From NCBI GenBank assembly GCA_016210005.1, contig JACQVA010000069.1:1-64000 (forward strand): DNA of 64,000 bases, in the 5' to 3' direction. Numbering within the stretch: the first letter of the stretch is position 1; each line of letters begins with the position of its first letter. A program made the position numbers and the translations under genes. The DNA is from Deltaproteobacteria bacterium (GTDB lineage Bacteria; Desulfobacterota; Binatia; HRBIN30; JACQVA1). Below the pieces are notes generated by a model. That model had not been told where the DNA came from, ran no database searches, and saw only the letters and a program-made list of their open reading frames with translations. Of the stretch, positions 34,404 to 58,171 are shown piece after piece.

Positions 34404-34504
34404 AGTGCGGCGACGTCGGAAGCCCTCACCCTGGAGAGGGAATTGATCGGATGTGCCGGCTCGTCTCGGCGCGAGGACCAAGCGCGCTGCGTGCGCGCAA
34501 TTTG

Positions 34505-34548
34505 CCCCCTCTCCCCGGACCTTGCGGGGAGAGGGTTGGGGTGAGGGG
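34505..34548 (+). repeat. Palindromic GC-rich repeat, copy A1
   Basis: A 10-bp perfect stem (34507-34516 with 34526-34535, CCCTCTCCCC / GGGGAGAGGG) is followed by a GGGGTGAGGGG tail. Its tail faces copy B1 about 90 bases away, the geometry of a REP/BIME pair. A second facing pair lies near 41.7-41.8 kb. Confidence 0.8.
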
Positions 34549-34638
34549 TCCATGACTTGGCCGGCTGGGTCGTAAAAACCGAGCCGGCGTTGGACGCGAT
34601 GGAGACTGCGCTGGTGCGAGCGGTCGAGGCTGCTCGGG

Positions 34639-34680
34639 CCCCTCACCCCGACCCTCTCCCCGCAAGGTGCGGGGAGAGGG
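34639..34680 (-). repeat. Palindromic GC-rich repeat, copy B1
   Basis: Inverted copy of A1: the tail CCCCTCACCCC comes first, then a perfect 12-bp stem (34652-34663 with 34669-34680) with an AAGGT loop. Confidence 0.8.
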
Positions 34681-34801
34681 AGGTATGTGTGCGCGTGCGG
34701 GAGCTTGCTCCCGCTCTGGAATGGCACGAGGCGCCGCCGTAAGGCCCGAAAGCGGCGGCGAGCCGCCGCACTCCAAACGGTGAGTCCGGCTCTCCGGTGA
34801 T

Positions 34802-35800: not shown

Positions 35801-35804
35801 TGCA

Positions 35805-35837
35805 GCCCTCACCCCTGCCCTCTCCCAGGGGAAGAGG
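35805..35837 (-). repeat. Palindromic GC-rich repeat, degenerate copy
   Basis: CCCTCACCCCTGCCCTCTCC followed by AGGGGAAGAGGG is a degenerate B-type copy. It spans the CRTAC1 stop codon, so the last residues of that protein (PSSPGRGQG) are encoded by the repeat. Confidence 0.6.
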
Positions 35838-37638: not shown

Positions 37639-37654
37639 CAGTGCCGCATTTCCC

Positions 37655-39793: not shown

Positions 39794-39818
39794 CGTTGCC
39801 TCCGTGACGTCCTCCCGA

Positions 39819-41672: not shown

Positions 41673-41702
41673 CGTCCTACCCGGATCGCTTGGCGTGGCG
41701 CT

Positions 41703-41747
41703 CCCTCTCCCCGCATGTTTTTGCGGGGAGAGGGCTGGGGTGAGGGG
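41703..41747 (+). repeat. Palindromic GC-rich repeat, copy A2
   Basis: A perfect 13-bp stem (41703-41715 with 41722-41734) with a TGTTTT loop, followed by the GGGGTGAGGGG tail. It forms a facing pair with copy B2 about 50 bases on. Confidence 0.8.
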
Positions 41748-41796
41748 TTCATCGTTCGACCTCTTCGCATCCTTCGTGCTGCCAGAAACGCACGAG

Positions 41797-41841
41797 CCCC
41801 TCACCCCGACCCTCTTCCCGCGAAATGATGCGAGGAGAGGG
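41797..41841 (-). repeat. Palindromic GC-rich repeat, copy B2
   Basis: Inverted copy: CCCCTCACCCCGACC tail, then an imperfect stem (CCCTCTTCC / GGAGAGGG) with a longer loop. It shares the layout of copy B1. Confidence 0.7.
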
Positions 41842-41874
41842 AGCCGTTGCTGTGATCCCATCACCAGCGCTCGC

Positions 41875-43077
41875 CTACTGGCCGTAGTATACCAACGTGA
41901 GGAAAATCTCATGATCATCCTTACCCATCGAGCGATTGACGTCGGCGCGATAGTCCAGCATGGCGGACACCTGCGTGAGAATGGAGTAGCCAATCTCGAA
42001 GATGCCCGCCGTGTCGTCGGAGTTCGAGGTGCCAAGATCGCGGATGACCGACTCGAATTGGACCGCGAAACGGAGATCCTGGTGCATCGGGACGATCCAG
42101 TCGGCCCACGCCAGGCCGCCGAATACCTCCGCGGTCTCACCGCCGGTGATGCCGACCAGACGGCCGTCGCCTTGGAAGCCGTCCTGGCCGAAGGTCATTT
42201 GTGTTCCCATCATCAAGTACGTGCCGTACTTGTACAGCTGATCGGCGCCGAGGCGCCAGCGCGAGATGGAACGGTCGTCCATCACCTTCACCGCCCGCAC
42301 GGTCGGCAGATCGCCGTAAAGGAACGAGAGGCCATATTGCAGGTCCCAGTAAGTCGGCGTGCCGAAGCGGCCGGTGAGCAGATACGTGCGATCCTCGGCG
42401 CCGCCGAACCAGTCGGGGGAGTGCACCGCCTCGCCGGACCCGATGGTGGCGGCAACCTCCCAGTCGTATTCAGCCGCGGGACCTTTGAGGCTGACGCCCC
42501 AGTCCCACTTGAGCCCCAAGTCGGTGCCCTCGAGCGGCAGCAGGAAGCGCTGGCGCGGCGCCATCACCGGGTTCATGCCGTAGGGAATCACGAACTCGCC
42601 GACCCGCAGCGTGAAGCGGTCCATCCCTTCCGGGTTGAAGCGGAACCAGAAATCCTGCGGCGCGAACTTGATCGGCTCCAGGCCGGTGCCGTCCTCCATG
42701 CGGTCGTAGACCAGCCGCGGATGCAGATCCATCGCGGTCAACGGGAACCAATCGGGCAGCGCCTGGCGATTGATCCACGACTGCGCGTTGAACGTCTGGA
42801 CATAATCCGCGCCGATGTAGTTGCCCGGCGGCCGGGGCGAAAGCTCGAAGTGGTCCTTCGTCATGTCGCCCGGCGGCACGCCCCGCGTACCCTTGGGGGA
42901 GTAAAAGGCCGAGAAGACGGCTTCCTTGTAGAAGAAGGATCGGCCGGGGCTTTCGTCCTCGTCGTGCGTTTCGGCGGCGATGGGCAGCGCTGGCAAGAGC
43001 ACCACCGTCAGGGCTACCACCCCCACGCGTAACCATAAACCCTTTGTGCGCGATGGCTTACCTAAGACGAGATCCAC
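41875..43077 (-). CDS. Outer-membrane porin-like beta-barrel protein
   Basis: A 400-residue exported protein. A signal peptide ends near residue 35 (LPALPIAAE). The rest is a series of alternating amphipathic strands (YDWEVAATIGSG, YWDLQYGLSFLYG, LRFAVQFESVIRDLG, HEIFLTLVYYGQ), typical of an outer-membrane barrel. It is not a match I can name. The GTG start at 43077 was chosen because GGAGGA lies just upstream; the longer frame starts without support. It is the first gene of cluster A, with a CRTAC1 protein and the cytochrome following. The arrangement recalls porin-cytochrome conduits, in which a barrel houses multi-haem cytochromes, but this is inference. Confidence 0.65.
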   Translation of the reverse strand: MDLVLGKPSRTKGLWLRVGVVALTVVLLPALPIAAETHDEDESPGRSFFYKEAVFSAFYSPKGTRGVPPGDMTKDHFELSPRPPGNYIGADYVQTFNAQSWINRQALPDWFPLTAMDLHPRLVYDRMEDGTGLEPIKFAPQDFWFRFNPEGMDRFTLRVGEFVIPYGMNPVMAPRQRFLLPLEGTDLGLKWDWGVSLKGPAAEYDWEVAATIGSGEAVHSPDWFGGAEDRTYLLTGRFGTPTYWDLQYGLSFLYGDLPTVRAVKVMDDRSISRWRLGADQLYKYGTYLMMGTQMTFGQDGFQGDGRLVGITGGETAEVFGGLAWADWIVPMHQDLRFAVQFESVIRDLGTSNSDDTAGIFEIGYSILTQVSAMLDYRADVNRSMGKDDHEIFLTLVYYGQ

Positions 43078-43316
43078 CCCTTCCTCCTCCTGCTCCCGGG
43101 TAGAGCACCGACTTGCATAACATCCGGAGCCACAGGAAGCACGGCTCAAGCCTGACCGCGGTCACTCTATGGGCTGACCGCTGCCGATTCGGCCGGGGGA
43201 CAAACGGTGCCGCCGGGGCTTGGGGCCAACAACGAACGAGGCTGCGGCCTTGCTTCCCATAGCCTGCGATTGTGCCCATACTCGGTCGCGCGGGCCGGCC
43301 GGGCGGCGCCAGCACG

Positions 43317-43758: not shown

Positions 43759-45279
43759 CTATTGCCTCAGCGGCACGAATACCAGAAAGCTCTCGTCACG
43801 AAAGACCAGCTGATAGCTCTTGGGATCGAGGGCGAGAACATTACCCAAGGCGTGCGTGGCCGGAATCACCAGCACGTCGGGACCCCAGCGCTTCAGCGTG
43901 TTCAGCCAGTCGTTCTTCACGTTCATGACATCGTAGGCCCGCAGGAAGTGCTCGGCCGGCACCCACTGTGTGCGACCGTCAGTGGTGACGCGGAAGTCGA
44001 GATCCGGCCGCTGCTGGTACAAGATCCAGCGGCACCAGCCGCCGTGGTTGAAGTGTGTCAGCACCCGCAGGTGCTCGCGCGGCGGCCGCGGGCTGAGGTC
44101 GAGAGTCGTGATGTGCCGGCAAGCGGCCACTGGCAGCATCGCGGTGATGTACTCGTCATTATCGTGGAGCCAGGGGAAGTGGCGAGCGGCATGTACCGCG
44201 GCGCCCAGCAATACCAGCGCCACGATCGCGCTGGCCACCGGCCGCTCCCAGCGCCGGACCCGACCCAGCGGCACGTGCGCCAGTAGCTGCAGCTGGCGCA
44301 CGAAGTAGGGCAGTCCGGCCACCGCAAATACCGCGACGAATTTGAGACTGCCGATTGCCAGCAGGACAAACACAACCGCCGACAGCCCCGCGCCGATCCG
44401 CGCCACCAAGCGGCGCCAGCTGAAGGTGCGCGCCACCACGATGACGTAAAGCAGGATCAGCCACGGGGTGAAGCCTTCGGTTGCAAGCGCGCCGCGAAAC
44501 TCGCCAATGGTCGTCTTCAGCTCGGCCGGCATGGTGAAGTAGTCCCACAACAGGGCATAGTTCATGAACAGAGACGGCGGCATGAATCCGAACGGCAGCA
44601 AGCCGTAAGGCGAAATCAGTCCCGCCCCACTCAGCAGCACCGCCCCGCCCCAGGCGTAGGCGGCGCCGAACCTATCACTGCCGGTGAAGCGCGGGGCGCA
44701 ACGGTAGAAGAACCACAGCGCCGGGATCAACGCCCAGTAAACGTGAACATTCACCAGCACCACGGTTAGCCCCAGCAAGTACGGCAGCTCCCAAGCGGCC
44801 GCCCTCTGAATCAGCCGGCGCACCGCCAGCGCCACCAGGCACAGCGACAGCATTTGCGGCCGCACCGACACGACGTGGCCGATGAGGGCCATGGCGCCGA
44901 AAAAGGCCGCCAGGGTGACGGCCATCGGCTGGCGCCGCGGCGACTCCAGCAGGACGATGTCCAGCACCACCGTGGCGAGGTAGGCCAGCAGCAGCCCGAG
45001 TGCCAGCCGCAAGCCCTGGTAGTGCCCGAGGCAATAGATCCCGTAGAGCGCTAGCTGCCCGAGCCAGTGATAATCATGCCAGAACGGGTTGAACGAGTTG
45101 ACGAAGTCGTACGACGGCAGTGCGCGATGGTCGGCGATCCATGCGCCACCGGCAAGGTGCCAGCCCAAGTCCGGATCATGCGCCGGGTGATACCAGAAGG
45201 TCAGGCCGTAGATCGCCGCGGTGAGGTACAGCCACACGCGGCGACTGCGCTGCCTCTGATCTTCCTTGCCATCTCTCAT
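43759..45279 (-). CDS. Polytopic membrane protein, GT-C glycosyltransferase-like
   Basis: A 506-residue protein with about ten membrane helices. The first periplasmic loop holds HDPDLGWHLAGG, a layout (acidic residues just after helix 1) seen in GT-C lipid-linked sugar transferases and related uncharacterised membrane families. A C-terminal extramembrane domain of about 120 residues (WILYQQRPDLDFRVTTDGRTQW) follows. A glycosyltransferase role is a guess from topology. Its ATG overlaps the TGA of the multi-haem lipoprotein gene by four bases, so the two are co-translated. Confidence 0.6.
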   Translation of the reverse strand: MRDGKEDQRQRSRRVWLYLTAAIYGLTFWYHPAHDPDLGWHLAGGAWIADHRALPSYDFVNSFNPFWHDYHWLGQLALYGIYCLGHYQGLRLALGLLLAYLATVVLDIVLLESPRRQPMAVTLAAFFGAMALIGHVVSVRPQMLSLCLVALAVRRLIQRAAAWELPYLLGLTVVLVNVHVYWALIPALWFFYRCAPRFTGSDRFGAAYAWGGAVLLSGAGLISPYGLLPFGFMPPSLFMNYALLWDYFTMPAELKTTIGEFRGALATEGFTPWLILLYVIVVARTFSWRRLVARIGAGLSAVVFVLLAIGSLKFVAVFAVAGLPYFVRQLQLLAHVPLGRVRRWERPVASAIVALVLLGAAVHAARHFPWLHDNDEYITAMLPVAACRHITTLDLSPRPPREHLRVLTHFNHGGWCRWILYQQRPDLDFRVTTDGRTQWVPAEHFLRAYDVMNVKNDWLNTLKRWGPDVLVIPATHALGNVLALDPKSYQLVFRDESFLVFVPLRQ

Positions 45280-48200
45280 TCCACTCCACGCGCCCGCGCC
45301 GGCCGCCGCCCGGCCGCCGGCAGCGCCGGCGCGATCGGTGCGCGCGAGATGCGCTCGATCTCGGCTCGGGTGAACGGGCGAGCGCCGGGGTGCGAGTTGT
45401 CTTTGAGCTGACGGCCGTCCTCGTCCACCATGCGGTCGAGCAGCACGCGTTCGAGGTCGATCCCGCGGCTGACCGCCACCGGCAGTGTCTTCAACACTGC
45501 CGGCGCGTTCACGTCCGACACGTCGATGATCGCCATGCCGCCGGCCGCGAGCCCGGCGTAAACGTAGGCCTTGTTCTTCGGCGGCTCGAAGGCGTTGGCC
45601 ACCAGCAGATCAGACACCGCCCCCGCCGAGGTGAACGCCGTCACCACAACCGGTGATTCCGGATTGCTGACCCGGGCGATTACCAGGCCGCCGGCGCCGT
45701 CGGCCACGTACAGGTACTCGCGTTCGAGCGACCTCTGCGTGCTCGAACCCGGATCGTAGTGCGACTTGGTAAAGAGCGCGTGGGCGTCGGTGGTCGGCAA
45801 GGTCGCCGCCACATAGGGTGCGGTGGGATCATCGAGATTGACGATGCGCACGCCGCCCGCGCCGTCGGCCACATACGCCATCATGTTGAACGGCTTGGTG
45901 CCCTCCGTCACCGGGTCGGAATACCGCGGCCACGCCGCCACGTCGCGGGCATCGTTAGCGGCTGGGTCGGCCCCGTTCAAGTCGAGAGTGGCCACGACGC
46001 TGGCGGCGTTGGGGTCTTTGACGTCGATCACCAGCAAACCGCCGGGGCCGTCGGCCACCAGCACATACAACCCGTGCACCGCCAGCGCGCGCGCGTCGGT
46101 GGTGCGCAGGCAGCCGAGGAACAGCGGGTGCAACGGGTCGGCCAGGCTATAGGTCATCAAGCCGTCGGCACCGCCGGCAACTAACAGGGTCTTACCGGCG
46201 ACCGCGACTTCGTGTCCGTTCGCAACCGGCGTGGTCGACACCACTTGCGGATTCGTCGGATCAGCCAGGTTCACGACCACCAGCCCTTGGGTGCCATCGG
46301 TGACGTAGGCGAGCTTGGCCAAGCCATCGACTTGATCGGTAACCACGGCCAGCCCTCGCGGATCGGGCAGGGCCAGCGTGCCAACCACGCCGGCTGCGCC
46401 CGGGTCCTTGCGGTTGATCACCGTCAGCGCTCCCTCCGGTGCCGGCGAGAGCGTGAACAGATACGTGCGTGAGAGATTGAAACCGTCGGTGCCCAGCCCC
46501 AGGGCGGCCGGGTTACGGTGGCACTCGAGACAATAGCGGGCATTCTTGCGGGTGGTGTGGGGCTGCACCGGGTTCATCGCCAAACCGGAGATGCCGGCTG
46601 CTGTCAGCGGCAGCTCCTGGTGCATGATCTGCTGGCCGGCGGCGTCCTTGACAGTGGTCAGCACCTGGCAGCCGGTCACAAACGGTGCGATCTTGCCCTC
46701 GGCGTTGTAGCCCATGTGGAAGTTCTTGAAGTTTACGAAGTACTTGTCATCGAGCACCGGCTTGCCCGGGGTTTGCGCGCCGGCGACCATATCGAGCGCG
46801 CTCTGGCTGAGGTCGCGGTTGAAGTGACAGCCGTAACAGTTGTTCTGCCACGCGGAATGGCAGGTGTAGCACTCGAGGCCGCCGCTTTCCTTGATGTGGT
46901 TGGCGTTCATCGCCGTAGCCGCGATCGGGTTGTGGAACGGGCTCTCCGGGTTGACGATGTCTTTGACCTGCTTGACCACGTGCTTCTCACCGGTGACCTT
47001 CGAGGTCAGCATCATCTGCCCGTCTTCCCAGGCCAGATTGGTCAGCGGCGAGCCGCGCGTGCTGACCATCGAGCCGTAGGCGGTAAGCGAGCCGTGGCAG
47101 TTCTCGCACTCGATCTCGGTGGCCTGATCCATGTGCCCGTAAATGTTGCCGTCGCCCATGACTTCGCGGCGCACGTGGCAGTCGATGCAGTGCAGGTTGC
47201 GTTCGTGATGAATGTCGGGCGGCGTCACCTGCGGGTCTTGCACGTAGTACGCGCCGTGGAGCTTGCGCGGCGTCAGCCCGGGGTAGTCGTCGCCCATCGG
47301 CGTTCCCGGCGGGGTTTGTGCCAGCCCGCGGAAACTGAGGCCGATGCGCGCACCGCGGATGTGGCAGTGGGTGCACTGGTCGGTCGGGATCTTGCGCGTG
47401 AGCTGGTGAATGCGCGGATGGCCGACCTCGGTCTTGTTGATGGTGTGGTCGCCCGACTCGCTCAACGCGGCGTTGGTGTACGGCATGTGACAGGCGGCGC
47501 AGCCTTCGGAGCGGTAGTTGCCTTCTTGGCCGGCTACGCCGCGCACCGCCGCGCCGCGCGACCACAGGTGGCAGCGGGTGCAGATCTTGCGCGGAACATC
47601 GCCGTAATGGCGCTGGACGGAGTCGAGCGGCCACTCCTCGTCCTCAGCCGGCACTTGACTGAGCGAAGCCAGCGCGCCGCGCTCGGCGGGGATATCGCCG
47701 TCTTCGTCGCTCACCGGCATGTTACCCCAGATCGCGGTGCGATCCGGTAGGATGCCGTTCTGGTAGGCGCCGCCGGTGAGATGGCCGGTGGTGGAGGCCA
47801 TCATCGACTTCATCAGATCGTCGACGTATGGCGCGTGGCAAGCGCTGCCGCCGAGGCCGTCGCGGCCGCAAGTTGAGCGCACCACCCGCAGGTTGCTCGG
47901 GTTCAAGAACTGCAGGTAATCGCGGTCGGCATAGTCCTGCGGCAAGATGGTCGCGTTTTGCGGCAGCGGCGCTTGCGCCTGCACGTGCGCGCCGTCCTTG
48001 GTCGTCGCCTGCGGATTGCCGGTGTGACAGTGGGTACAGCCGAGGGCTAACTTAGTGTGTGCCGTCTCAATGCCGGCGTGACAATCAATGCAATGGCCGG
48101 TCGCGGCCGCCACCGCATCGGTGGGCGTGGCGGTCGGCGTCTCGGTCGCGGTGGCCGTCGGCGTCGCCGTGGCCGTCTCGGTCTCAGTCTCGGTGGCAGT

Positions 48201-48434
48201 TGCGCTAGCAGTGGTGGTAACCGTCGGGGTCAGCGTGGCGGTCGCCGAGTTGGTCGGCAGCGGCGTAAGCGTCGGCGTCGCGGCCGGTGTTTGGCTGGCG
48301 GTGCCGGTCGGTGTGGCCACTGGCGTGGGCGTTGGCCCCGGCTGCCCGTCATCACCGGCACAGCCCGCCACCAGTGTCACCGCTGCGATCACCAGCAGTG
48401 AGTAGGTAGCTGTCAGCAGACGTGCGCGAGCCAT
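45276..48434 (-). CDS. Deca-heme cytochrome c lipoprotein with Thr/Pro stalk and LVIVD-like propeller
   Basis: A 1052-residue lipoprotein (lipobox LVAGC, lipid Cys at 25). Residues 32-106 form a Thr/Pro/Ala-rich stalk. The haem region (115-640) has ten CXXCH motifs (CIDCH, CTHCH, CTRCH, CAACH, CTHCH, CIDCH, CENCH, CYTCH, CYGCH, CLECH) plus a CX9CH near residue 188 (CGRDGLGGSACH). Residues about 665-1010 are repeats such as YVTDGTQGLVVVNLADPTNP, matching LVIVD-type propeller blades. It probably sits on the outer face of the outer membrane and carries electrons outward or inward. The ATG at 48434 has AGGAG upstream. It is coupled to the GT-C-like gene. Confidence 0.88.
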   Translation of the reverse strand: MARARLLTATYSLLVIAAVTLVAGCAGDDGQPGPTPTPVATPTGTASQTPAATPTLTPLPTNSATATLTPTVTTTASATATETETETATATPTATATETPTATPTDAVAAATGHCIDCHAGIETAHTKLALGCTHCHTGNPQATTKDGAHVQAQAPLPQNATILPQDYADRDYLQFLNPSNLRVVRSTCGRDGLGGSACHAPYVDDLMKSMMASTTGHLTGGAYQNGILPDRTAIWGNMPVSDEDGDIPAERGALASLSQVPAEDEEWPLDSVQRHYGDVPRKICTRCHLWSRGAAVRGVAGQEGNYRSEGCAACHMPYTNAALSESGDHTINKTEVGHPRIHQLTRKIPTDQCTHCHIRGARIGLSFRGLAQTPPGTPMGDDYPGLTPRKLHGAYYVQDPQVTPPDIHHERNLHCIDCHVRREVMGDGNIYGHMDQATEIECENCHGSLTAYGSMVSTRGSPLTNLAWEDGQMMLTSKVTGEKHVVKQVKDIVNPESPFHNPIAATAMNANHIKESGGLECYTCHSAWQNNCYGCHFNRDLSQSALDMVAGAQTPGKPVLDDKYFVNFKNFHMGYNAEGKIAPFVTGCQVLTTVKDAAGQQIMHQELPLTAAGISGLAMNPVQPHTTRKNARYCLECHRNPAALGLGTDGFNLSRTYLFTLSPAPEGALTVINRKDPGAAGVVGTLALPDPRGLAVVTDQVDGLAKLAYVTDGTQGLVVVNLADPTNPQVVSTTPVANGHEVAVAGKTLLVAGGADGLMTYSLADPLHPLFLGCLRTTDARALAVHGLYVLVADGPGGLLVIDVKDPNAASVVATLDLNGADPAANDARDVAAWPRYSDPVTEGTKPFNMMAYVADGAGGVRIVNLDDPTAPYVAATLPTTDAHALFTKSHYDPGSSTQRSLEREYLYVADGAGGLVIARVSNPESPVVVTAFTSAGAVSDLLVANAFEPPKNKAYVYAGLAAGGMAIIDVSDVNAPAVLKTLPVAVSRGIDLERVLLDRMVDEDGRQLKDNSHPGARPFTRAEIERISRAPIAPALPAAGRRPARARGVE

Positions 48435-48520
48435 AGCCCTCTCCTGTTCCGCGACCAAGACGGCCGCTACCTCGAGACAGCGCCGGCAGCGAAGCCGGCC
48501 GCAGGCTCTTTAGTCGCTTT

Positions 48521-49726
48521 CTACTGCCGAGGCAACGCGGCCACGGCTTCCATTTCACAAAGGAGGTTGGCGCGGCAGACCGCGGCATTGACTATGGCAT
48601 TGGGGAACCCTTCGACGCCGTGATGGCGAAGGATGTCGCGCAGGCGCGGGGCATCGCCGGCGTGCTTGACATACGTCACCGCCGAGACCAGGTCGCGCAG
48701 CGACGCGTTCTGCGCCGTCAGCAGGGCCTCCACGTTGATGATCATCCGCTCCACCTGGCGCTCGAAGTCGCCGACGTGGGCGGTGTGCCCTTCTTCGTCC
48801 ACGCTCGCGGTTCCCGAAACGTAGAGCGCGACCTTGTTGGCCTCGACGACCTTCAGCCCGCGCGAGAAATCGGCGCCGTAAGTCCACGCCTCGTTGAGCG
48901 TGGGCGTGGTCATCACCCCGACTTCCAGCGGCGCGGGCGACTTGATGGCATAGAGGGACATCGAGAAATTGTGCCGGCCCGCGAACGGTGCCCCCCCGAT
49001 GCCGGTGCTGGCCGGGCGCAGACTAATGCCGCTGCGGCGGAAGAACTCCCTGCGGGCGCGGTTGAACTCGGCGTAGTCGCGGTCGATGTCGCGCAAGTGG
49101 ATCCAGGTGCGGACCACTTCGCCGAAGCTCAGCCCTTGCGCCCGCAAGAGCTGCTCGGCGGCGAGCAACATGCCGAAGGCTTCGTCGAACGCGCTGCCGT
49201 CGCTGCCGAAAATGTTGCCGGCATAGAGGTATTCTTGCGCCCCCAGGCGAACCACCCGCGCCGCAAAGCGCGCACTGGCGGCGCAGCCGCAGGTGGGCGC
49301 GCTCCACACCGTGCGCCCGAACTTCTGCGCCCGCTGGCGCGGAATCACCGCCAGCGCGGCGATCTCAACCCGCGCACGTGGGTCCAACGGCGGCTGCTCG
49401 ATGCAGGTCGAAGCCGGCCGGCAAACTCGGCAGCTGAGCTCGCCCAGCACCTCTGTACGCACGCGCCGGAATGCGGCTAGGTCGCGGCCGATGTCACGGA
49501 AGAAGATGGTTTCGTGCACGACGTGACGTACGCCGCCGCCAGCCGCGGCCAGCGCCTGGTGGAGCCCCCGGTAAAGCGAGCGTGTCTGGCCGGCGACATC
49601 GCCCGCCGCCGCCCGCGCCGGCGCGCAGAGAATGAAGAACTCATCGGCCTCCGGGCCCGCAAAGCGGCGCATCGTGCACTTGCTGTCGTTCGAGTTGATC
49701 GTCAGTTGTTGCTCGCCGTACATCAT
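48521..49726 (-). CDS. Three-domain Rid/chorismatase-like protein
   Basis: A 401-residue protein in which I see three Rid (YjgF/UK114)-like units: about 20-135, 140-260 and 275-401. Units 2 and 3 resemble FkbO/Hyg5-type chorismatases (VVRTWIHLRDIDRDYAEFN, PASTGIGG, LYVSGTASVDEEGHTAHVGD, CRANLLCEMEAVA). The Arg that RidA uses to bind its imine substrate (P-A-R-S/T-x-V) is replaced in all units (PASTCIE, PASTGIG, PNAIVN), so classical imine deaminase activity is unlikely. No signal peptide, hence cytoplasmic. It sits 12 bases after the substrate-binding protein gene. A role on chorismate or another small aromatic acid is a possibility, not shown. Confidence 0.65.
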   Translation of the reverse strand: MMYGEQQLTINSNDSKCTMRRFAGPEADEFFILCAPARAAAGDVAGQTRSLYRGLHQALAAAGGGVRHVVHETIFFRDIGRDLAAFRRVRTEVLGELSCRVCRPASTCIEQPPLDPRARVEIAALAVIPRQRAQKFGRTVWSAPTCGCAASARFAARVVRLGAQEYLYAGNIFGSDGSAFDEAFGMLLAAEQLLRAQGLSFGEVVRTWIHLRDIDRDYAEFNRARREFFRRSGISLRPASTGIGGAPFAGRHNFSMSLYAIKSPAPLEVGVMTTPTLNEAWTYGADFSRGLKVVEANKVALYVSGTASVDEEGHTAHVGDFERQVERMIINVEALLTAQNASLRDLVSAVTYVKHAGDAPRLRDILRHHGVEGFPNAIVNAAVCRANLLCEMEAVAALPRQ

Positions 49727-49738
49727 GGCTCACCCCTT

Positions 49739-50929
49739 TCATCGACACGCCGCCAGCTCGACTGGCGCTGCCGCAGCCCGATCGCGGTTAAGGCCAAGCG
49801 CTTGCAAACGGCCGCCTGTCACGCGGGCGAGCGGCGCCGGCCCGGCGCGGTTACCCGCGGCATCAAACTCGATCCACCCGCTCAGCCCGTGACACCGTGT
49901 TGCCGCCAGCGCTGCCCGCGGGGATGCGCCCGCCCTGTCGGATTGCAGCGCCGCGAGCAACACCCGCGCGCCATCGTAACCGTAAGCCGCGGCCGCGCCC
50001 GGCTCGTGCCCGTAGGCCGCGATGTACTCGGAGCGAAAGCGCTCGGCCGCCGGCCCTGCCGGCGCGGGCGCGGCCAACACCATGCCTTCCGCCCCCTCCC
50101 CCGCCACCGCCAGGAAGGCCGTCGTGGCCAGCGCCAGGGGACCGAAGAAAGGCAAGCCGACACCCGCCCGGCGCAGCTGGCACACCACCCGCGCCGCCGC
50201 GCCGGCGGGCTGCAAGAAAAGCACCGCCTCGGCGTCTCCGGCACGCACTGCCTCCGCTACCCGGTCACCGTTCGCCTCGTTTTCAGCCACCGCGATCACC
50301 TGCGGCACGGCTGCGCCCCGAGCACTGAGCACCCGCGCAAACGTTTCGAATGCCACGCGCGAGTCGTACTGCGACTGCGCTAGCACCACCGCCAGGCGGC
50401 GCACGCCGTATAGCTCCTCGAGCAGCGCAGCAGCCTGCTGGCGATCATCGGGAACCAGGCGGAAGAACCACGGCACCTTGATCCGCGTCAGAGTCGAATC
50501 GGAGACCCACGGGGTGAGCAGCAGGAAGCGCCCTTTGCCGCGCGTCACTACCTGTTCGGCAAGGTGTGCGCTGCGGCCGTCAAGCGGACCGAGCACGGCC
50601 TGTACGCCCTCGCCGTACACCAACCGCACCAACTCGCCGGCGCCCGCGCTCCACTGGCCGGCCCCCGCCGCCGTCACCGCGCGGCACGCGAGCGGGCATT
50701 GCTGCAGCGCCAGCTCGGCGCCCCGGCCCACCTCCGCCGCTGCTGCCGCGCCCGCACCATCGGCGGCGAAAAACATCCCGATGCGCGCCTCACCCCCGCC
50801 AGCGGCCCCACCCGGCGCCGCTAAGATACATGCGATGAGCGCGGTGAGAAGACGGAAGCGGGGGTTACAACGAATCAAACGGATCAAGAGAATTGAGACC
50901 AACGGATGGGCGGGCTGGGAGGTCCCCAT
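49739..50929 (-). CDS. ABC-type substrate-binding protein (Leu/Ile/Val-binding fold)
   Basis: A 396-residue periplasmic binding protein of the Peripla_BP_6/LivJ fold. Hydrophobic signal segment (LLTALIACILAAPGGAAG), then IGMFFAADG, GVQAVLGPLDGRSAHLAEQVV, FRLVPDDRQQAAALLEELYGVRRLAVV and AYGYDGARVLLAAL, all standard for the family. The ligand is probably an amino acid, amide or aromatic acid. No permease or ATPase gene is nearby. The start is uncertain: the frame is open to 50980, but the upstream part is an AT-rich intergenic-looking segment with repeated ATCCGC/AATCGG phrases; the ATG at 50929 was taken. Confidence 0.75.
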   Translation of the reverse strand: MGTSQPAHPLVSILLIRLIRCNPRFRLLTALIACILAAPGGAAGGGEARIGMFFAADGAGAAAAAEVGRGAELALQQCPLACRAVTAAGAGQWSAGAGELVRLVYGEGVQAVLGPLDGRSAHLAEQVVTRGKGRFLLLTPWVSDSTLTRIKVPWFFRLVPDDRQQAAALLEELYGVRRLAVVLAQSQYDSRVAFETFARVLSARGAAVPQVIAVAENEANGDRVAEAVRAGDAEAVLFLQPAGAAARVVCQLRRAGVGLPFFGPLALATTAFLAVAGEGAEGMVLAAPAPAGPAAERFRSEYIAAYGHEPGAAAAYGYDGARVLLAALQSDRAGASPRAALAATRCHGLSGWIEFDAAGNRAGPAPLARVTGGRLQALGLNRDRAAAAPVELAACR

Positions 50930-50986
50930 CCGGCCAATCCGCTTAATCGGTTCAATCCGCTGTAAAAGTCCTTGATCCACAAGCGC

Positions 50987-53410
50987 CTACTGCTTTTGCG
51001 CCGGACGGAAGTAGTGGAAGCGGCCGTCTTTCACCTCGGCCAGCCAGGGCTGGCGGACGTTGTTCAGTGTCGAGTCGAACTCGATCGTGCCGGTGACACC
51101 TGCGAAGGTCTTATTGGCGAACAACGCATCGCGAATGCGCGCACGATTGAGCCCGGCGCGGCGAATGGCGGCGATGATCAGATTGGTGCCATCGTAGGCG
51201 TGGGCACTGAACGCCGTCGGCTCTTCACCGAACCGCTCGCGATAGCGGCGCTGGAAATCGAGCCAGGCCGGATCGTTCCGCTCCGGGTTGAAGGTCGCGC
51301 TCGCCACTACCCCCTCTGCGGCGGCGCCGGCGGCTGCAAGAAATTCCGGATGCACGGCGCGGTCGGAGGCAAAGATCGGCAGTATCAGGCCGCGCGCCCG
51401 AACCGCCTTGACGATCAACCCCAGCTCGCGCGGGTTGCCGAGCAGGAACAGCGTCTCAGCGTTGCTGCGGGCGATGTTATCGAGCTGCGCGGAGAAATCC
51501 CTGTCGCCGTTTTTGAAACGTTGCTCGATTACGACCGGATGGTTGAGCCGGCGCATCGCCTGAACGAACTCGGCCACCCCCACCCGGCCGTCGCGGTCGT
51601 TGACACGCAGCAGCGCCACCCGCGCAAGGCCGCGGCCGCGCAGGATGTAATCGGCGAGCAGATAAGCGCTCTGGCGATCATCGCTCATCACCCGCGCGAT
51701 CCAGGGGATCGCGTGCTCCAGCAGCGTGGGGTCGGAGGAGCCGGCGTTAACGATCGGGACCTCGGCTTTCAAGGTGGCCCGGGCAAGTACGTGCTGGTGG
51801 TTACTCTCGACGCCGCTCAAGATCGCCCACACGCCGTCGGCGTAGGCGAACTGCGCCAGCTCATTCGAGGTCTGACCCCATTGCACCAGGTCGGTGCGGC
51901 GCACCAAGGCAAACGGCTGGCCGTTAAAACCGCCGGCGCGGTTGGCGTCTTCAACCGCAAGCTGCGCGGCGCGCAGCATCGGGCGCCCGAACAGCTCGGC
52001 CTTGGGATCGCCTTGTACCCCCGAACGCAATCCGGGCGGGAGCGTGGGCCGGTCCTGATCCTCGAGCGGACCGATGAAACCGATCCGCACCTCAGTGACC
52101 GGCAGGGCCGGCTTCTCCCTCCCGACACCGAGGAACTCGGGCGCGGTGGTGAAGAATTCGTGGTAGACGCCGAGGTGGCGATAGGGCAGGAGTTCCTCGG
52201 GCGTGTTGGCGTAGTGAAAACGCGCCGGAACCGCGGCGGGCGCGGCGGGCGCCGGCAGCGCTGCCGCGCCCGCCGCGGGTATCGGCGGGATCGTCAGATG
52301 CGGATCCGGTTGGCCGCGGCTGACGCCCTGCTCGGTGGCGAGCCAAAGCATGTCATCCTGGAAGTCCACCCCGAGCACGAAACTATGGGCCATCGCGCTC
52401 TCGGTGACGAGCGTAGCCGCGGGCTCTCGGCCGCGGCTGAAGCGGACCTCGCCCCGGCCATCTTCAGCACGCCGGTAACTCACCCAATTGGCGCCGTCAG
52501 TGGCACTGAGCCCCTTGTCCGTGGCGCACCACGCGACCCGGCCGCGCGCCCGCACGAACTGGACGAAGTTGCTGGCCAAGCCGCTGTCTTCGGCGAAATA
52601 GCTGCGCCAGGCGCGGCCGTCATAGCGCGCCAGGCCGAAGTAGCTAGCCTGCCACAGCAGGCCGTCCCTGAAGTCAACACCCGCAGTGACATCATGCACC
52701 GGGCCGTCGTCAGGCAGCAGATCGATCTCCATCTCCTTGTCGGGATCACGGTACTCGCGCCAGCGCTGGGTGGTCTTTTCCAGCTCCAGCACGCCGCCGC
52801 CCCAGGCGCCGAGGTAGACCTTGCCGCGCTCGATGGCGGCCGAATAGGTCCAAGGCTCGGCCATCGGCGTGTTCTGCTCGGTGAAAACCGTCCAGGCGCC
52901 GGTGCGTAGGTCGAGCCGGCTGGCGCCCATCGCCGTGGCGGCCCAGATCTGGTCCTCGTCGGGATCGCATTCGACGTCGTTGACGAAGTCGTTGGAAAGT
53001 CCGCTGGAAAGTTGGGTGAAGGCATCGAAGCGCCCGCCCGAAAAGCGCGCCAAGCCGCCCATCGTGCCGATCCACAGATCACCAGTGCGCGGGCTGACAT
53101 CGAGCGCGAGCACGACCGGATGCGGCAGCCCGTCCTGCACACCCCACGAGCGCCAGCGCCCATCTTCGTAACACGCCAACCCCGACTCGGTGCCGGCCCA
53201 GACCCGGTCGCCGTCAACCCGGATGGCAAGAACTTTCTGTGACGGCAGACCAGCGGCGACGGAGAAGTTGGTCCACCGCCCGATCACCGGGGCACTCAAG
53301 ACATCGACCTCTGCGGCCTCGACCCCGCGCGGCGGGCCAAGGCCAACGAGCAGTAGGGCGCAGAGCGCGCGCAACCAGCGCGAACACCAGGCACTCGGGT
53401 CCATGCTCAT
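50987..53410 (-). CDS. Fusion of Reg_prop-like propeller and substrate-binding domain
   Basis: An 807-residue exported protein. Signal peptide to about 33 (LLLVGLGPPRGVEAAE). Residues 40-375 are propeller blades of the two-component-regulator type (GLPSQKVLAIRVDGDRVWAG, GDLWIGTMGGLARFSGGRF, DQIWAATAMGASRLD). Residues about 445-800 are a complete Peripla_BP_6 domain (VRIGFIGPLEDQDRP, AAQLAVEDANRAGGFNGQP, VWAILSGVESNHQHVLA). Reg_prop repeats normally sit on histidine kinases and this fold normally stands alone or on receptors, so the pairing in a single secreted protein is unusual. It lies 9 bases after the tri-haem protein gene and precedes a second binding protein. Confidence 0.8.
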   Translation of the reverse strand: MSMDPSAWCSRWLRALCALLLVGLGPPRGVEAAEVDVLSAPVIGRWTNFSVAAGLPSQKVLAIRVDGDRVWAGTESGLACYEDGRWRSWGVQDGLPHPVVLALDVSPRTGDLWIGTMGGLARFSGGRFDAFTQLSSGLSNDFVNDVECDPDEDQIWAATAMGASRLDLRTGAWTVFTEQNTPMAEPWTYSAAIERGKVYLGAWGGGVLELEKTTQRWREYRDPDKEMEIDLLPDDGPVHDVTAGVDFRDGLLWQASYFGLARYDGRAWRSYFAEDSGLASNFVQFVRARGRVAWCATDKGLSATDGANWVSYRRAEDGRGEVRFSRGREPAATLVTESAMAHSFVLGVDFQDDMLWLATEQGVSRGQPDPHLTIPPIPAAGAAALPAPAAPAAVPARFHYANTPEELLPYRHLGVYHEFFTTAPEFLGVGREKPALPVTEVRIGFIGPLEDQDRPTLPPGLRSGVQGDPKAELFGRPMLRAAQLAVEDANRAGGFNGQPFALVRRTDLVQWGQTSNELAQFAYADGVWAILSGVESNHQHVLARATLKAEVPIVNAGSSDPTLLEHAIPWIARVMSDDRQSAYLLADYILRGRGLARVALLRVNDRDGRVGVAEFVQAMRRLNHPVVIEQRFKNGDRDFSAQLDNIARSNAETLFLLGNPRELGLIVKAVRARGLILPIFASDRAVHPEFLAAAGAAAEGVVASATFNPERNDPAWLDFQRRYRERFGEEPTAFSAHAYDGTNLIIAAIRRAGLNRARIRDALFANKTFAGVTGTIEFDSTLNNVRQPWLAEVKDGRFHYFRPAQKQ

Positions 53411-53419
53411 GCCATTCCC

Positions 53420-55399
53420 TCACAAGGTCTTCAGGTACTCGATCAGGTCGTTGAGATCGCTCTTCGACATGTCGATGGTGACACCGTGAGTGTCGTAGGG
53501 GTTGAAGCGGGTCCAAATCTCCTCCAGCGAGGCGGCTTTGCCGTCGTGGAGGTAGGGCGCCGACTGGTAGAGGTTGAGTAGCTGCGGCGTGTCGAACTCC
53601 TTGTGATCGTCGGTCGTGGAGGCCGAGCCGACATCGAACCGCTGCCGGCCGGTGAACCGCGGCGGCGGGTGGCAAGTGATGCAGCGGTCCTTAGCCTCGA
53701 TCGGCTTACCGTTGCGCATGGTGCCGCGCTCGAACAGCGCTCGGCCGCGCGCTTGCGCCGGGGTCAGGGCGCCGCCCGGCGAACGGTGGCGGTTGGGCGG
53801 GTTGCGCAAGGAGCGCATAAACGCCACCAGGGCGTTGAGATCGGCGGGCGAGAAGGGCTCGACGCGAGTGAGAAAGCGGGCGAAGCGGATGCCGCACTGC
53901 ATGTACATGCTGGTGTTCTTACCGTCCCATTTGAACGGGGCGGTGCCGTCGATTCCGAGCAGGGTGCGGTTGTCGACCAGGTTGCGGCCGAGGCCGTCGG
54001 GCTCGAAGTCGTACTGCAAGCGGTCGACGTGATTGTTGGGGTGACAGCTGCGGCAACTGAACTGGCCCTGGAACGTGCGCGCGGCACTGTTGAACAGCCG
54101 CTCGCCGCGCCGCAGCACGGTTTCACTCTCAGTGACGCCAACGTCGATCGTCTCCGCCACCACCAGCCGCTCGAGGTCGATCACGGCGATGCGGTCGGCG
54201 AGCCGCTCGGCAACGTAGAGCCACCTGCCGTTGGGCGCCACCGCCAGCCCCTTTGGGTTGGCGCCGACGGCGATGCGCGCGCGCACGTAGCGCCGGCTGA
54301 GGCCGAGATGGTTGGCGAAGGTGGCCAGATCATCGGCCGAGGCCGAGGTCAGCAGGGCACGGAGTCGTTCGACGTCGATGACCGTGATCACGTCCACCCC
54401 GGAATGACTGACAAACGCGAGTCGACCATCGGGCGTGATGACGACGTCGCAGGGATCGGCGTAGAAGGCATTGGGTTCATCGAGCAGCACCTGCGCCACA
54501 CGGCCAGTCTTGAGATCGATGACGCCAAGGCCGTTGGTCATCATCCAGCCGCGGGCCACCTGAATGGCCGGCAGCAGATTCTTCGGCCGCACCAGTGTGA
54601 ACAGCGCCAGGTCGCCTTGCGGCGCCACCGCGATTCCTTCGAGCAGGTGCGCGTTCACCACCGCGCTGCGGGTCGCCACCACGCGCCGCTCGACATCGAT
54701 GACCGTGACCTCGGAGACCGGCGGCTCGGGACGGCTCTTGGGGTACGAGAGCTGGCCGGTGACCAGCAGGCGTTTGCCGTCGGGCGTGAGCGCGACAGCG
54801 TACGGGTTGCTACCGGCCGGCAGCCGCCTAACCTCGGCGCCGCGGGCCAGCAGGACCACGCTGATGTCGTTGCTGAACCAGTTCGCGACCAACAACGTCC
54901 CGCCGTCGCCTGTGAGCGCGAGCCCGGCGGGCTCATCACCGACCGCGATGGTAGTGCTCACAGCGCCGGCGTCGAGATCGACAACCACAACCGAATCTTC
55001 GCCTGCGTTCGAGACGTACGCGCGGTGTCCGTCAGGAGCCAGCGCGACGCTGTGCGGCTTGGCGCCGACTGCGATCGTCCGCCGCAGCCGCCGGGAGTCG
55101 AGGTCGACTTCGAGCAGGGCGCCGGCTTGCATCGCGGTGGCGTAGAGCCGCCGGCCGTCGGCGGACACCGTGAGATTGAGGGGGGAGCGGTAGCCGGGGC
55201 GGGCGAGACGGTCGCCGAGGGTGCCGCCGTAGCCGACGTAGTGGCAGGAGAGGCAGCCGACCGCGGCCGGCTCGGCGCCGGTGTAGAAGCGGACGTGCTC
55301 GCTCGCGCCGCGGTACGCGGCCGCGCCGGCGAAAAGCAGCACCAGCACCGCCAGCGCAGCGCGGCCCAGCTTGTGCCGTATGCCTCCTCTCCAGCTCAC
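53420..55399 (-). CDS. Tri-heme c protein with YVTN-type propeller (cytochrome peroxidase-like)
   Basis: A 659-residue exported protein. The N-terminal helix is a signal or anchor (AALAVLVLLFAGAAAY). Haem motif CLSCH at 49-53 is followed by seven YVTN-like blades (about 70-420, e.g. HSVALAPDGHRAYVSNAGEDSV). Two more haem sites, CRSCH (449) and CITCH (573), lie in a di-haem peroxidase/MauG-like C-terminal part. The closing SDLNDLIEYLKTL resembles that family. It probably passes electrons and might reduce peroxide or modify a partner. It overlaps the mono-haem gene upstream by four bases. Confidence 0.85.
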   Translation of the reverse strand: MSWRGGIRHKLGRAALAVLVLLFAGAAAYRGASEHVRFYTGAEPAAVGCLSCHYVGYGGTLGDRLARPGYRSPLNLTVSADGRRLYATAMQAGALLEVDLDSRRLRRTIAVGAKPHSVALAPDGHRAYVSNAGEDSVVVVDLDAGAVSTTIAVGDEPAGLALTGDGGTLLVANWFSNDISVVLLARGAEVRRLPAGSNPYAVALTPDGKRLLVTGQLSYPKSRPEPPVSEVTVIDVERRVVATRSAVVNAHLLEGIAVAPQGDLALFTLVRPKNLLPAIQVARGWMMTNGLGVIDLKTGRVAQVLLDEPNAFYADPCDVVITPDGRLAFVSHSGVDVITVIDVERLRALLTSASADDLATFANHLGLSRRYVRARIAVGANPKGLAVAPNGRWLYVAERLADRIAVIDLERLVVAETIDVGVTESETVLRRGERLFNSAARTFQGQFSCRSCHPNNHVDRLQYDFEPDGLGRNLVDNRTLLGIDGTAPFKWDGKNTSMYMQCGIRFARFLTRVEPFSPADLNALVAFMRSLRNPPNRHRSPGGALTPAQARGRALFERGTMRNGKPIEAKDRCITCHPPPRFTGRQRFDVGSASTTDDHKEFDTPQLLNLYQSAPYLHDGKAASLEEIWTRFNPYDTHGVTIDMSKSDLNDLIEYLKTL

Positions 55400-56424
55400 G
55401 GCGAGTGAGCCTCGGATTGCGAGTCGGCCGCCGCCAGCGGCGTGGCCGGGCGCGATAGCGCCCGCACCACGCGGTTGTCGGGCGCCAGCTCGGGGTCCTC
55501 GTGACAGCCGATGCAGCCGCGGTTCTCGTTCGGCCGCACCCAGAAACCGCTGTGATCTGCTGCCCGCACGCCGGTGCCGTCGAGCAGCTCTAAGTGCAAG
55601 GGCTGGTCGGCCGGCACCTCGATGAAGAACGAGCCGTCGTCTTCCACCGGGGCCTCGCCCAGCACCGTGCCGCCGGCCGCCAGCACGCGCACGGCCCGCA
55701 CCACGCCGCCCGTGGCCGCCGCCATCGTCGCCAGGCGTGAAGCGTAAACATCAAGGCAGAGCAGCGTGCCGCTGGACTTGCGCTCGTCGACCACGCTGGT
55801 GAGCCTGAGCGGCCGGGGCTGCGGCGCCGCCGCCTGCGCCGACTTGCCGAAGCTCACCGGCGATCCGCGCGCCTCCGCGCCCCCGTTTGCGCCGCCGGCG
55901 AGGATCGCGCGCTCGCCCAACGGCTGGTGGGGCGAGACCGAGACGAGCCGCTCGCTCGCGCCTTCGCCGATCTTCTCGGTGAACAGCACGTGCCCGTCGT
56001 GCAGCCACGGCCCGCCTTCGATCGAAGCGCGGTCGGCCGGCGCGCTGAAGAGCTGCAGCCCGGTGCCGTCCGGATTGACCACGAACAGGCGGCCCGGGGC
56101 CGCGCCCTCGAGCGGGTGGCGCCGAAAGACGATACGGCCGTCGGGCAGCAGCGCCGGCGCCCGGTCCCGTGCTTCACCGAAAGTGATACGACGCGCCTCC
56201 CGGCCATCAATTGGCGACACGTAGAGGGCGCTGGCCGCGCCGCCGGCAGCGCCGGCGGGCGCGCGCGCGAACACGCGCCGCCCGTCGGGTAGAACAAGCG
56301 TATCGGCGCCGTCGGCGCCGCGGCTAGCCACCGTGGGCGCGGACCACAGGCGAGCCAACACGAGAGCAGCGAGCGCCAGGGCCGCGATCACTGTTTGCCG
56401 GCCGCTCGTGGCGGCCCTAAGCAT
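55396..56424 (-). CDS. Mono-heme PD40-type secreted protein
   Basis: A 342-residue exported protein with an N-terminal signal helix. WD40-like/PD40 phrases (RRITFGEARDRAPALLPDGRIVFRR, GRLFVVNPDGTGLQLF) form a partial propeller. A beta-rich domain (DDGSFFIEVPADQPLHLELLDGTGV) precedes the haem motif CIGCH at 304-308, followed by EDPELAPDN. The order PD40, then SFFIEVPAD, then RGCIGCHE recalls the middle/C-terminal region of hydrazine-synthase alpha-like proteins, but the protein is too short to be one. It overlaps neighbours on both sides (8 and 4 bases). Confidence 0.78.
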   Translation of the reverse strand: MLRAATSGRQTVIAALALAALVLARLWSAPTVASRGADGADTLVLPDGRRVFARAPAGAAGGAASALYVSPIDGREARRITFGEARDRAPALLPDGRIVFRRHPLEGAAPGRLFVVNPDGTGLQLFSAPADRASIEGGPWLHDGHVLFTEKIGEGASERLVSVSPHQPLGERAILAGGANGGAEARGSPVSFGKSAQAAAPQPRPLRLTSVVDERKSSGTLLCLDVYASRLATMAAATGGVVRAVRVLAAGGTVLGEAPVEDDGSFFIEVPADQPLHLELLDGTGVRAADHSGFWVRPNENRGCIGCHEDPELAPDNRVVRALSRPATPLAAADSQSEAHSP

Positions 56425-58171
56425 CGGGCTCCTCGACGCTCAGCACCTGCCGCACGGCTGTATCACTCAGCACTTGAGCCTTGCCCGAGGGCCAGCGGAT
56501 CTCGATGCGCTCGACCAGTTCGGCCGACCCCAGGCCGAAGTGCAAGCGCGGATCGTTCTGCGAGAGATAGCCTGCACTCGAGCGGCGGGCGGCGGCCTGC
56601 GTGCGCCCGCCGGCGGTTATCGTGACTTTGGTACCGAGGCCGTCGCGGTTCGAGCGCGGCGCGGCGCCCTTCGGCTTACGTCCCATCGCGCCGCGCAGTT
56701 GCAGGTCGATCCAGGCGTTGCGGTTGCCGCCGTCGTTGCGTAGGAGCACCGCCGGGCTGTTCAAGTTGACAACGATGACGTCGAGGTCACCGTCGTTGTC
56801 GTAGTCGGCGTAAGCGCTGCCGCGCGCCATCCACTCGTGCTGAAAGAAGTCGCCCCAGTGCTCGGAGACATCGCGGAATTGGCCCAGCTGGTTCTCGAAC
56901 AGCTGGCCCTCCTGGCCGAAGAGGCGCGAGAGGTCGGCGTTGACTTTGAAGATGTCGGGGTCGGCGTCGTTGTCGAAGTCGAAGAAGAACGAACCCCAGC
57001 CGACGAACTGCGCACTGTGCCGGCCGACGCCGGCCGCGACCGAGACGTCGCTGAAGCGGCCTTCGCCGTCGTTGTGAAAGAGCGAGGAGAGCGAGCTGTC
57101 GGAGACGAAGATGTCGACGCGGCCGTCACCGTCGTAATCACCGAAGTCGACCGCCATGTGCGCGGTGGAGTCACCGGCGCTGTTGTAGGCGACGCCGGCC
57201 GGCAGCGCGGCTTCGCGGAACTGCTTGCCGCCCTGGTTGAGGTAAAGGAAGTTCTCCATCGCGTCGTTGGAGACGTAGACGTCGTCAAACCCGTCGTCGT
57301 CGAGATCGGCAACCGCCACGCTCATGGCGCGGCCGGCGCCGTCGATGCCGGCGCGCTCGGTCACGTCCTCGAAGGTGCCGTCGCCGCGGTTGCGGTAGAG
57401 AAGGTCGCGCTCGCCGGCGTAGGCCAGTGGTCCGGGAAAGCCGTCCGGGGCATAGTACAGGTTGTATTTGGGATCGAACTGAATGTAGTTGCCGACGTAA
57501 AGATCGAGCCAGCCGTCGCGGTCGTAGTCGAGCCAGGCGGCCGCCGCCGAGCAGCGCGGATCACCGACCCCGGCACGCGCGCTCACGTCCTCGAAGCTGC
57601 CGTCAGCGCGATTGTGAAACAGAACGTTGGGGCCGTAATTGGCGACGTAGATGTCGGGGAAGCCGTCGTTGTCGTAATCACCGGCAACCACTCCCATCGA
57701 ATAGCAGCCGGCGCAGCCGACACCGGCAGTGACGGTCACATCGTCGAAGGTGCCGTTGCCGCGGTTGTGGAAGAGCCGGTTGAGCCAAGCCCCGCGCGGG
57801 GCGTCGCCCTTCGAGATCGCCTGGTGATGTTTCCCGGTGGCGAGGTAGAGATCGGTGTAACCATCCTGATCGTAATCGAGCCAGGCGGCGCCGCTGCCCA
57901 CGGCTTCGACGAGGTTCGAGAACAGTTCGTCACCGAAGGAATGGACGAAGTCGATCCCGGCGGCCGCGGTGACATCGACGAATGCCGGCGTGCCTTCGGC
58001 GGGCAGCGCCGGTCGCGACGCCGCCGGCGGCGAGCGCGGCGGGCCGCGGTCGCATCCTATGATCGCCATCAGCGTGAGAACCAGCGCCGCCGCGAGCGCG
58101 GCGTTAACGGGCGTACCGACAAGCGCCACCGCTCGCTCTCGCCGCCGGCGCCACGATGACCGTGTCATCAT
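56417..58171 (-). CDS. CRTAC1-type FG-GAP/ASPIC-UnbV lipoprotein
   Basis: A 584-residue lipoprotein (lipobox AIIGC near residue 40 after a basic, hydrophobic start). FG-GAP blades cover about 65-460 (DYDQDGYTDLYLAT, DYDNDGFPDIYVAN, DYDGDGRVDIFVSD, DYDNDGDLDVIVVN). An ASPIC/UnbV domain (about 480-560) follows. It is the first gene of cluster B and overlaps the mono-haem gene by eight bases. As the promoter-proximal lipoprotein of the cluster it could anchor the complex at a membrane. Confidence 0.85.
   Translation of the reverse strand: MMTRSSWRRRRERAVALVGTPVNAALAAALVLTLMAIIGCDRGPPRSPPAASRPALPAEGTPAFVDVTAAAGIDFVHSFGDELFSNLVEAVGSGAAWLDYDQDGYTDLYLATGKHHQAISKGDAPRGAWLNRLFHNRGNGTFDDVTVTAGVGCAGCYSMGVVAGDYDNDGFPDIYVANYGPNVLFHNRADGSFEDVSARAGVGDPRCSAAAAWLDYDRDGWLDLYVGNYIQFDPKYNLYYAPDGFPGPLAYAGERDLLYRNRGDGTFEDVTERAGIDGAGRAMSVAVADLDDDGFDDVYVSNDAMENFLYLNQGGKQFREAALPAGVAYNSAGDSTAHMAVDFGDYDGDGRVDIFVSDSSLSSLFHNDGEGRFSDVSVAAGVGRHSAQFVGWGSFFFDFDNDADPDIFKVNADLSRLFGQEGQLFENQLGQFRDVSEHWGDFFQHEWMARGSAYADYDNDGDLDVIVVNLNSPAVLLRNDGGNRNAWIDLQLRGAMGRKPKGAAPRSNRDGLGTKVTITAGGRTQAAARRSSAGYLSQNDPRLHFGLGSAELVERIEIRWPSGKAQVLSDTAVRQVLSVEEPDA

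Follow-up and report, generated by a model that had tools for sequence, protein, structure and literature searches.

A hydrazine synthase-like operon of clade III type with a predicted chorismatase gene on a Binatia contig

What do the eight closely spaced genes at positions 43759-58171 of a deltaproteobacterial contig do, and how many of them belong together? The genes lie in a 64,000-nucleotide stretch of DNA, here called the window (contig JACQVA010000069.1, positions 1 to 64,000 of the forward strand, assembly GCA_016210005.1), from Deltaproteobacteria bacterium (GTDB lineage Bacteria; Desulfobacterota; Binatia; HRBIN30; JACQVA1). Hydrazine synthase (HZS) is the key enzyme of anammox. Our comparisons indicate that six of the eight genes form a conserved unit, that the products of genes 2 and 3 are related to HZS and lack its hydrazine-forming features, and that the product of gene 6 looks like a chorismatase. 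The features, in the direction of transcription, are as follows.

Gene 1, P0001: 56417..58171, minus strand; CRTAC1-type exported lipoprotein with FG-GAP (PF13517) and ASPIC/UnbV (PF07593) matches and the lipobox IIGC
Gene 2, P0002: 55396..56424, minus strand; HZS-alpha-like protein, PF18582 at 1.4e-16, one haem c (CIGCH 304-308), shortened propeller
Gene 3, P0003: 53420..55399, minus strand; fused HZS-beta-gamma-like protein with an extra N-terminal haem (CLSCH 49), a YVTN propeller and a di-haem CCP/MauG-type region
Gene 4, P0004: 50987..53410, minus strand; two-component-type propeller (Reg_prop) fused to a periplasmic binding protein (Peripla_BP_6, 1.8e-48)
Gene 5, P0005: 49739..50980, minus strand; second periplasmic binding protein (Peripla_BP_6, 2.8e-23), start codon uncertain
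Gene 6, P0006: 48521..49726, minus strand; three Rid-fold domains, predicted chorismatase, signal peptide not evident
Intergenic gap of 62 bases: 48459..48520, minus strand; hairpin-like GCCGGC-TTCGCT-GCCGGC
P0007, neighbour outside the core: 45276..48458, minus strand; deca-haem lipoprotein with an LVIVD propeller, ExtM-like multihaem type
P0008, neighbour outside the core: 43759..45279, minus strand; multi-pass membrane protein of no family

All eight reading frames are open on the minus strand, with gaps of -8, -4, 9, 6, 12, 62 and -4 bases between successive genes; the gap between P0006 and P0007 widens from 62 to ~86 bases if P0007 starts at an internal ATG. For P0005 the true start probably lies downstream of the annotated GTG, to judge from relatives that start closer to the signal peptide. 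CxxCH motifs number one in P0002, three in P0003 and ten in P0007. Domain matches and motif counts thus bear out the initial annotation of this DNA, which had described eight co-directional genes with short gaps, propellers in five of the eight products and haem c in three.

The relationship to HZS was clearest for P0003. This protein matched the model of the HZS beta-gamma fusion (NF052342) at 8e-68 and 229 bits against a curated cut-off of 1250, and among solved structures it matched the Kuenenia subunits 5c2v_B (6e-42) and 5c2v_C (1.7e-22). The best PDB match of its predicted propeller was again 5c2v_B (E 5.7e-34, template-modelling (TM) score 0.89 on target); the model is unreliable past residue 450, in the haem part, no distances were inferred from it, and the alignment behind it included a genuine HZS as one row. 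P0002 scored 23 bits against the curated HZS model (cut-off 800), and its match to PF18582, the HZS_alpha middle domain, lay above the cut-off of that family. For the comparison of residues, a genuine HZS from locus L093 of genome G688 (1639 and 1622 bits, above the cut-offs) served as the reference. At the Tyr591 site, where this reference reads Ser-Tyr, P0002 and its relatives have a gap after CIGCH. The haem alpha-II domain is missing, as P0002 has a single CxxCH and its chain ends soon after, and its relatives end ~30-50 residues past the haem motif. P0003 carries a gamma-I-type site, CRSCH 449 with W491 and C502, and a gamma-II-type site, CITCH 573. Trp491 occupies the position of gamma-His144, Asp168 is not kept, and Cys502 aligns with gamma-Cys165, which makes the third covalent haem bond.

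Compared with Kuenenia HzsABC (5c2v), the window thus shares an alpha protein with propeller and haem, a beta propeller, and a CCP-like di-haem gamma part with the third haem cysteine; it differs in lacking Tyr591, haem alpha-II, His144 and Asp168, in its extra N-terminal haem and in its reverse gene order. Alignment and modelling show P0002 and P0003 to be related to HZS but devoid of its hydrazine-forming features. Hydrazine synthase as the identity of the pair was rejected on the Tyr591 gap, the missing haem alpha-II and the change of His144 to Trp. A functional, unrecognised anammox-type enzyme would be compatible with the homology of both subunits and with Cys502, but we regard it as extremely improbable, since the gap takes in both Ser590 and Tyr591, the other losses point the same way, and the 229 bits of P0003 compare with 1639 for the genuine enzyme. 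HZS-like proteins of clades I-III were likewise concluded not to be hydrazine synthases (PMC12758564).

Those clades provide the closest published counterpart. HZS-like gene pairs outside anammox fall into four clades (Hagglund et al. 2025, PMC12758564), of which clade III has CRTAC1 first, then alpha, then a beta-gamma fusion bearing a single additional haem, and last two ABC binding proteins; among its marks, haem alpha-II is absent, Tyr591 falls in a gap and His144 is replaced by Trp (PMC12758564). Genes 1-5 correspond to this layout gene for gene, and the window shows the same marks: one extra beta-gamma haem, no alpha-II, the Tyr591 gap and Trp in place of His144. By gene order and residues set against the published description, we are therefore highly confident in reading genes 1-6 as an HZS-like operon of clade III type. 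The window departs from clade III in the propeller fused to its first binding protein and in the retention of Cys165, a residue that the paper notes for clade I (PMC12758564). The initial annotation knew of no named or described counterpart for these genes; that claim is wrong, since the clade III operons published in 2025 have the same gene set. The text of PMC12758564 (supplements not covered) mentions no chorismatase-like sixth gene, no 3-deoxy-D-arabino-heptulosonate 7-phosphate (DAHP) synthase and no case of horizontal gene transfer in the order to which the window belongs, and the literature searched yielded no report linking a chorismatase or Rid protein to HZS. The operon type is thus already published, and the nature of gene 6 and the DAHP synthase link described below are new here.

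Two other systems resemble the window in part. In Phycisphaerae, outside Brocadiales, an hzsA gene lies directly upstream of a fused hzsBC, as alpha and beta-gamma do here; within the part of the source covered (PMC10732223), possible anammox is proposed, and neither a chorismatase nor binding proteins are reported. The accessory genes of pyrroloquinoline quinone (PQQ)-dependent alcohol dehydrogenases (TIGR03863, TIGR03866) likewise combine an orphan binding protein with a YVTN propeller, but the window proteins score below the cut-offs of these models and no PQQ enzyme is encoded in the operon.

The extent of the unit became apparent from orthologous loci. Genes 1-6 are collinear in two Planctomycetota groundwater genomes (loci L021 and L022), at 45-76% identity per gene: 71-76% for gene 1, 72-73% for gene 4, which has the same fusion, and 53-55% for gene 5. 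In G008, a genome of the window's own order, the operon is split over two short contigs, with alpha and beta-gamma on C317 and the propeller-binding-protein fusion, the second binding protein and gene 6 on C27. In all three of these loci the co-directional run stops after gene 6, and the operon contains neither P0007 nor P0008. P0008 found only weak matches, in three of 38 relatives, and no Pfam or NCBIfam match; partial homologues of P0007 are present in two more genomes from the order, on different contigs from Rid3, the three-domain Rid type to which P0006 belongs. The GCCGGC-TTCGCT-GCCGGC sequence in the 62-base gap could form a hairpin; the gap contains no T run and was not scored as an intrinsic terminator. 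We believe this gap probably marks the end of the conserved unit. The eight-gene operon of the initial annotation was rejected because genes 7 and 8 are missing from the three orthologous loci, and the functional unit is six genes, 48521-58171, with P0007 and P0008 as local neighbours. The same annotation had proposed looking for conserved order in distant genomes, and such order was found for genes 1-6.

Gene 6 is the member of this unit that the text of PMC12758564 does not mention. Its model had a predicted local distance difference test (pLDDT) score of 85. In Foldseek searches the best PDB matches of this model were to chorismatases, Hyg5 (5a3k/5ag3) at 3e-17 and FkbO (4bps) at 2e-15 over ~365 columns, compared with 1e-8 for single-domain RidA; the TM score against 5a3k/5ag3 was 0.68 on target. 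In Hyg5 the catalytic residue is Glu-334, and a Gly, Gly, Cys set marks the 3-hydroxybenzoate-forming CH-Hyg5 subfamily (PMC7170507). The predicted chorismatase residues of P0006 are G242, G305, C384, R385 and E391, among which G242, G305, C384 and E391 are the equivalents of Hyg5 Gly173, Gly240, Cys327 and Glu334; the 5a3k sequence itself has Ser at the position of the diagnostic Cys. Across 42 Rid3 and Rid proteins from the fetched loci, all aligned rows retain C384 and E391. None of these 42 has Arg at either checked C-terminal-domain column for the Rid catalytic arginine (RidA Arg105), and an alignment with 2dyy also placed no Arg of P0006 at the Rid arginine position.

The assignment has results to contend with. 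In the RidA control the G305 and E391 positions proved common to ordinary RidA, which leaves C384, G242, the loss of the Arg and the fold as the diagnostic set. Against the chorismatase model TIGR04444, P0006 scored 49 bits with a cut-off of 325, and we do not file it in that subfamily for this reason; the general Rid model scores it higher, at 69 bits. P0006 shares with Hyg5 and FkbO the two C-terminal Rid-fold domains and the four equivalent residues, and differs in having a third, N-terminal Rid domain and in falling far below the family cut-off. On the alignments and the predicted model, gene 6 combines a fold of chorismatase type with the residues tested, and P0006 looks like a chorismatase. 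It had been called a three-domain Rid protein; the three Rid-fold domains stand, and in fold and residues the protein is nearer to chorismatases.

We then surveyed HZS-like loci for this gene and for DAHP synthase. The beta-gamma profile served to fetch 28 Planctomycetota loci, mostly its top matches and so a non-random sample; a Rid or chorismatase-like gene was present in 13 of them and a DAHP synthase in seven, the latter assigned above the curated cut-off. The Rid3 profile matched 43 of 392 Planctomycetota genomes, in 16 of which the match was on the same contig as a beta-gamma gene and within ~7 kb of it. By our own estimate (2-5 copies per ~5 Mb), chance would place a DAHP synthase within 20 kb of ~1-2% of loci. 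In the seven genomes the copy at the locus, which lies within the operon of these relatives, was usually additional to other genomic copies (the second copy in G396 was weak), so the DAHP synthase at HZS-like loci looks dedicated. The loci with DAHP synthase fall into at least three separate tree branches (L067; L070-L073; L078/L079/L133). The last of these is a conserved Planctomycetota cluster of a mono-haem cytochrome, a beta-gamma-like protein, a ~1015-residue protein, two FGE/EgtB-fold proteins, Rid3 and DAHP synthase. The ~1015-residue protein was rejected as HZS-alpha, being a propeller with a di-haem region and without PF18582; Rid3 and DAHP synthase there thus accompany a beta-gamma-like gene only.

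Rid3 and DAHP synthase also occur together at loci that lack HZS-like genes, next to PSCyt2/PSD1/DUF1501 genes (L114, L115, L117, L122). In the window's order, Rid3 lies beside a ~800-residue protein with PD40, a single haem and TPR, and beside cytochromes (L149-L154). In general, then, Rid3 seems to go with exported haem proteins. Among secreted-protein clusters of PSCyt2/PSD1 and DUF1501 type, a chorismatase-like Rid3 is present in L114, L115, L117, L122, L123 and L125, four of which also have DAHP synthase. Several of the L149-L154 loci also have a NosD-like beta-helix protein and a multihaem cytochrome of the paired CxxCH type.

The distribution of the operon bears on its origin. Full-length P0003 relatives were found in two of 15 genomes of the window's order and in 42 of 392 Planctomycetota; among 297 genomes drawn from the window's phylum, only its own genome had one. 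Genomes G000 and G008 each hold a single PF18582 copy, and two Planctomycetota genomes hold 11 and 23; the latter (G058 and G059) have a large paralogous family of HZS_alpha middle domains. In a maximum-likelihood tree the window, G008 and two Planctomycetota loci (L085, L086) group together with 100/100 support, and that group nests in a 15-row binding-protein (SBP)-type clade with 100/99. ObgE on the window contig is 78% identical within its own family versus ~50% in Planctomycetota, and an RND protein 73% versus 28%. Contamination of the assembly by Planctomycetota was rejected because these flanking genes fit the own family and G008 carries the same operon. Given a genuine contig and an operon of patchy distribution (two of the order's 15 genomes), the simplest reading is that genes 1-6 were probably acquired horizontally from Planctomycetota. 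Several propeller blades present in its relatives are missing from P0002, perhaps because the alpha-like subunit eroded after transfer.

What might the six genes do together? Homology, gene order, residues and fold are observed; from these we infer an activity, a product, a substrate and an export step, and at somewhat under an even chance we propose that genes 1-6 are an exported HZS-like haem system acting on a chorismate-derived hydroxybenzoate. P0006 would convert cytoplasmic chorismate to hydroxybenzoate, specifically 3-hydroxybenzoate if its Hyg5-type residues mean the same as in Hyg5. The hydroxybenzoate or a derivative would reach the periplasm, where the two binding proteins, P0004 and P0005, would capture it. 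Oxidation or reduction of the compound would then fall to the tri-haem, MauG/peroxidase-like beta-gamma protein, acting together with the mono-haem alpha-like protein and the lipoprotein CRTAC1. The compound itself would serve to mediate redox reactions, as the precursor of a cofactor or as a signal. Neither a permease nor an ATPase is encoded in the operons examined; the probable task of the binding proteins is therefore sensing or delivery, not supply to an ABC importer.

Several observations weigh against this proposal. The nearest solved binding proteins are of branched-chain amino-acid types, with aromatic binders weaker, and we identified no exporter for the proposed compound. The window operon and its closest relatives are without DAHP synthase, Rid3 is also found without HZS-like genes, and in the stretch read of the related SBP-type operons L065 and L066 there is no Rid gene.

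Alternative readings meet difficulties of their own. Gene 6 could be a true Rid-type imine/enamine hydrolase, with HZS-like haem proteins oxidising a periplasmic amine and the Rid protein clearing reactive imines. All three P0006 domains match Rid profiles, and the beta subunit of quinohemoprotein amine dehydrogenase is a structural relative of the P0003 propeller, with a weak family match. We consider this unlikely, however, as the 42 relatives have no Arg at the checked catalytic columns, the whole-length structural match is a chorismatase, P0006 is cytoplasmic while the haem proteins are exported, and the DAHP synthase neighbours would go unexplained. A chorismatase and a DAHP synthase would also go unexplained by a MauG-like maturation role, in which the di-haem part of the beta-gamma protein would make a radical-based modification of a partner protein, with the binding proteins and CRTAC1 as partners or targets. 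Matches to CCP_MauG, TTQ_mauG and the MbnH family, and a Trp at a MauG-type position, suggest such chemistry, but the operons show no quinoprotein or small peptide substrate, and we judge the role improbable. About equally improbable is a single surface electron-transfer chain of all eight genes coupled to ligand sensing, as first proposed for this locus. It would account for the short gaps across the eight genes, the ExtM-like deca-haem lipoprotein and the presence of binding proteins with propellers, yet P0007 and P0008 are absent from three orthologous loci and the gap before P0007 holds a hairpin-like sequence. What fits from that proposal is the idea of exported redox proteins coupled to a small molecule; surface electron transfer rests mainly on P0007, outside the conserved unit.

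No characterised relative of HZS is known to us, nor a settled account of how it arose, and we know of no substrate for HZS-like operons outside anammox. The first concrete lead on the substrate of these proteins is a conserved gene of chorismatase type, which several relatives combine with DAHP synthase. A bolder and rather doubtful extension is that HZS-like haem proteins outside anammox are widespread periplasmic enzymes for a chorismate-derived aromatic made by a dedicated DAHP synthase/chorismatase pair. If true, HZS would have arisen by recruiting an aromatic or phenolic redox enzyme, and gene 6 would be a clue to the ancestral substrate.

Outside the six genes, P0007 scored 223 bits against the selenite/tellurite ExtM model NF040943 (cut-off 800). 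Housekeeping genes lie on the same contig at 184-2195 and 20322-26940 (ribosomal proteins with obgE; the trp operon). The minus strand next to the eight genes, at 30924-43149, encodes a further three proteins of CRTAC1 type, one of them with TPR, along with an amidase of nitrilase fold, a tetra-haem membrane protein and a possible porin matched to no family. In L066 a relative of the TPR-CRTAC1 protein adjoins an HZS-like operon, and in L120 one adjoins Rid3.

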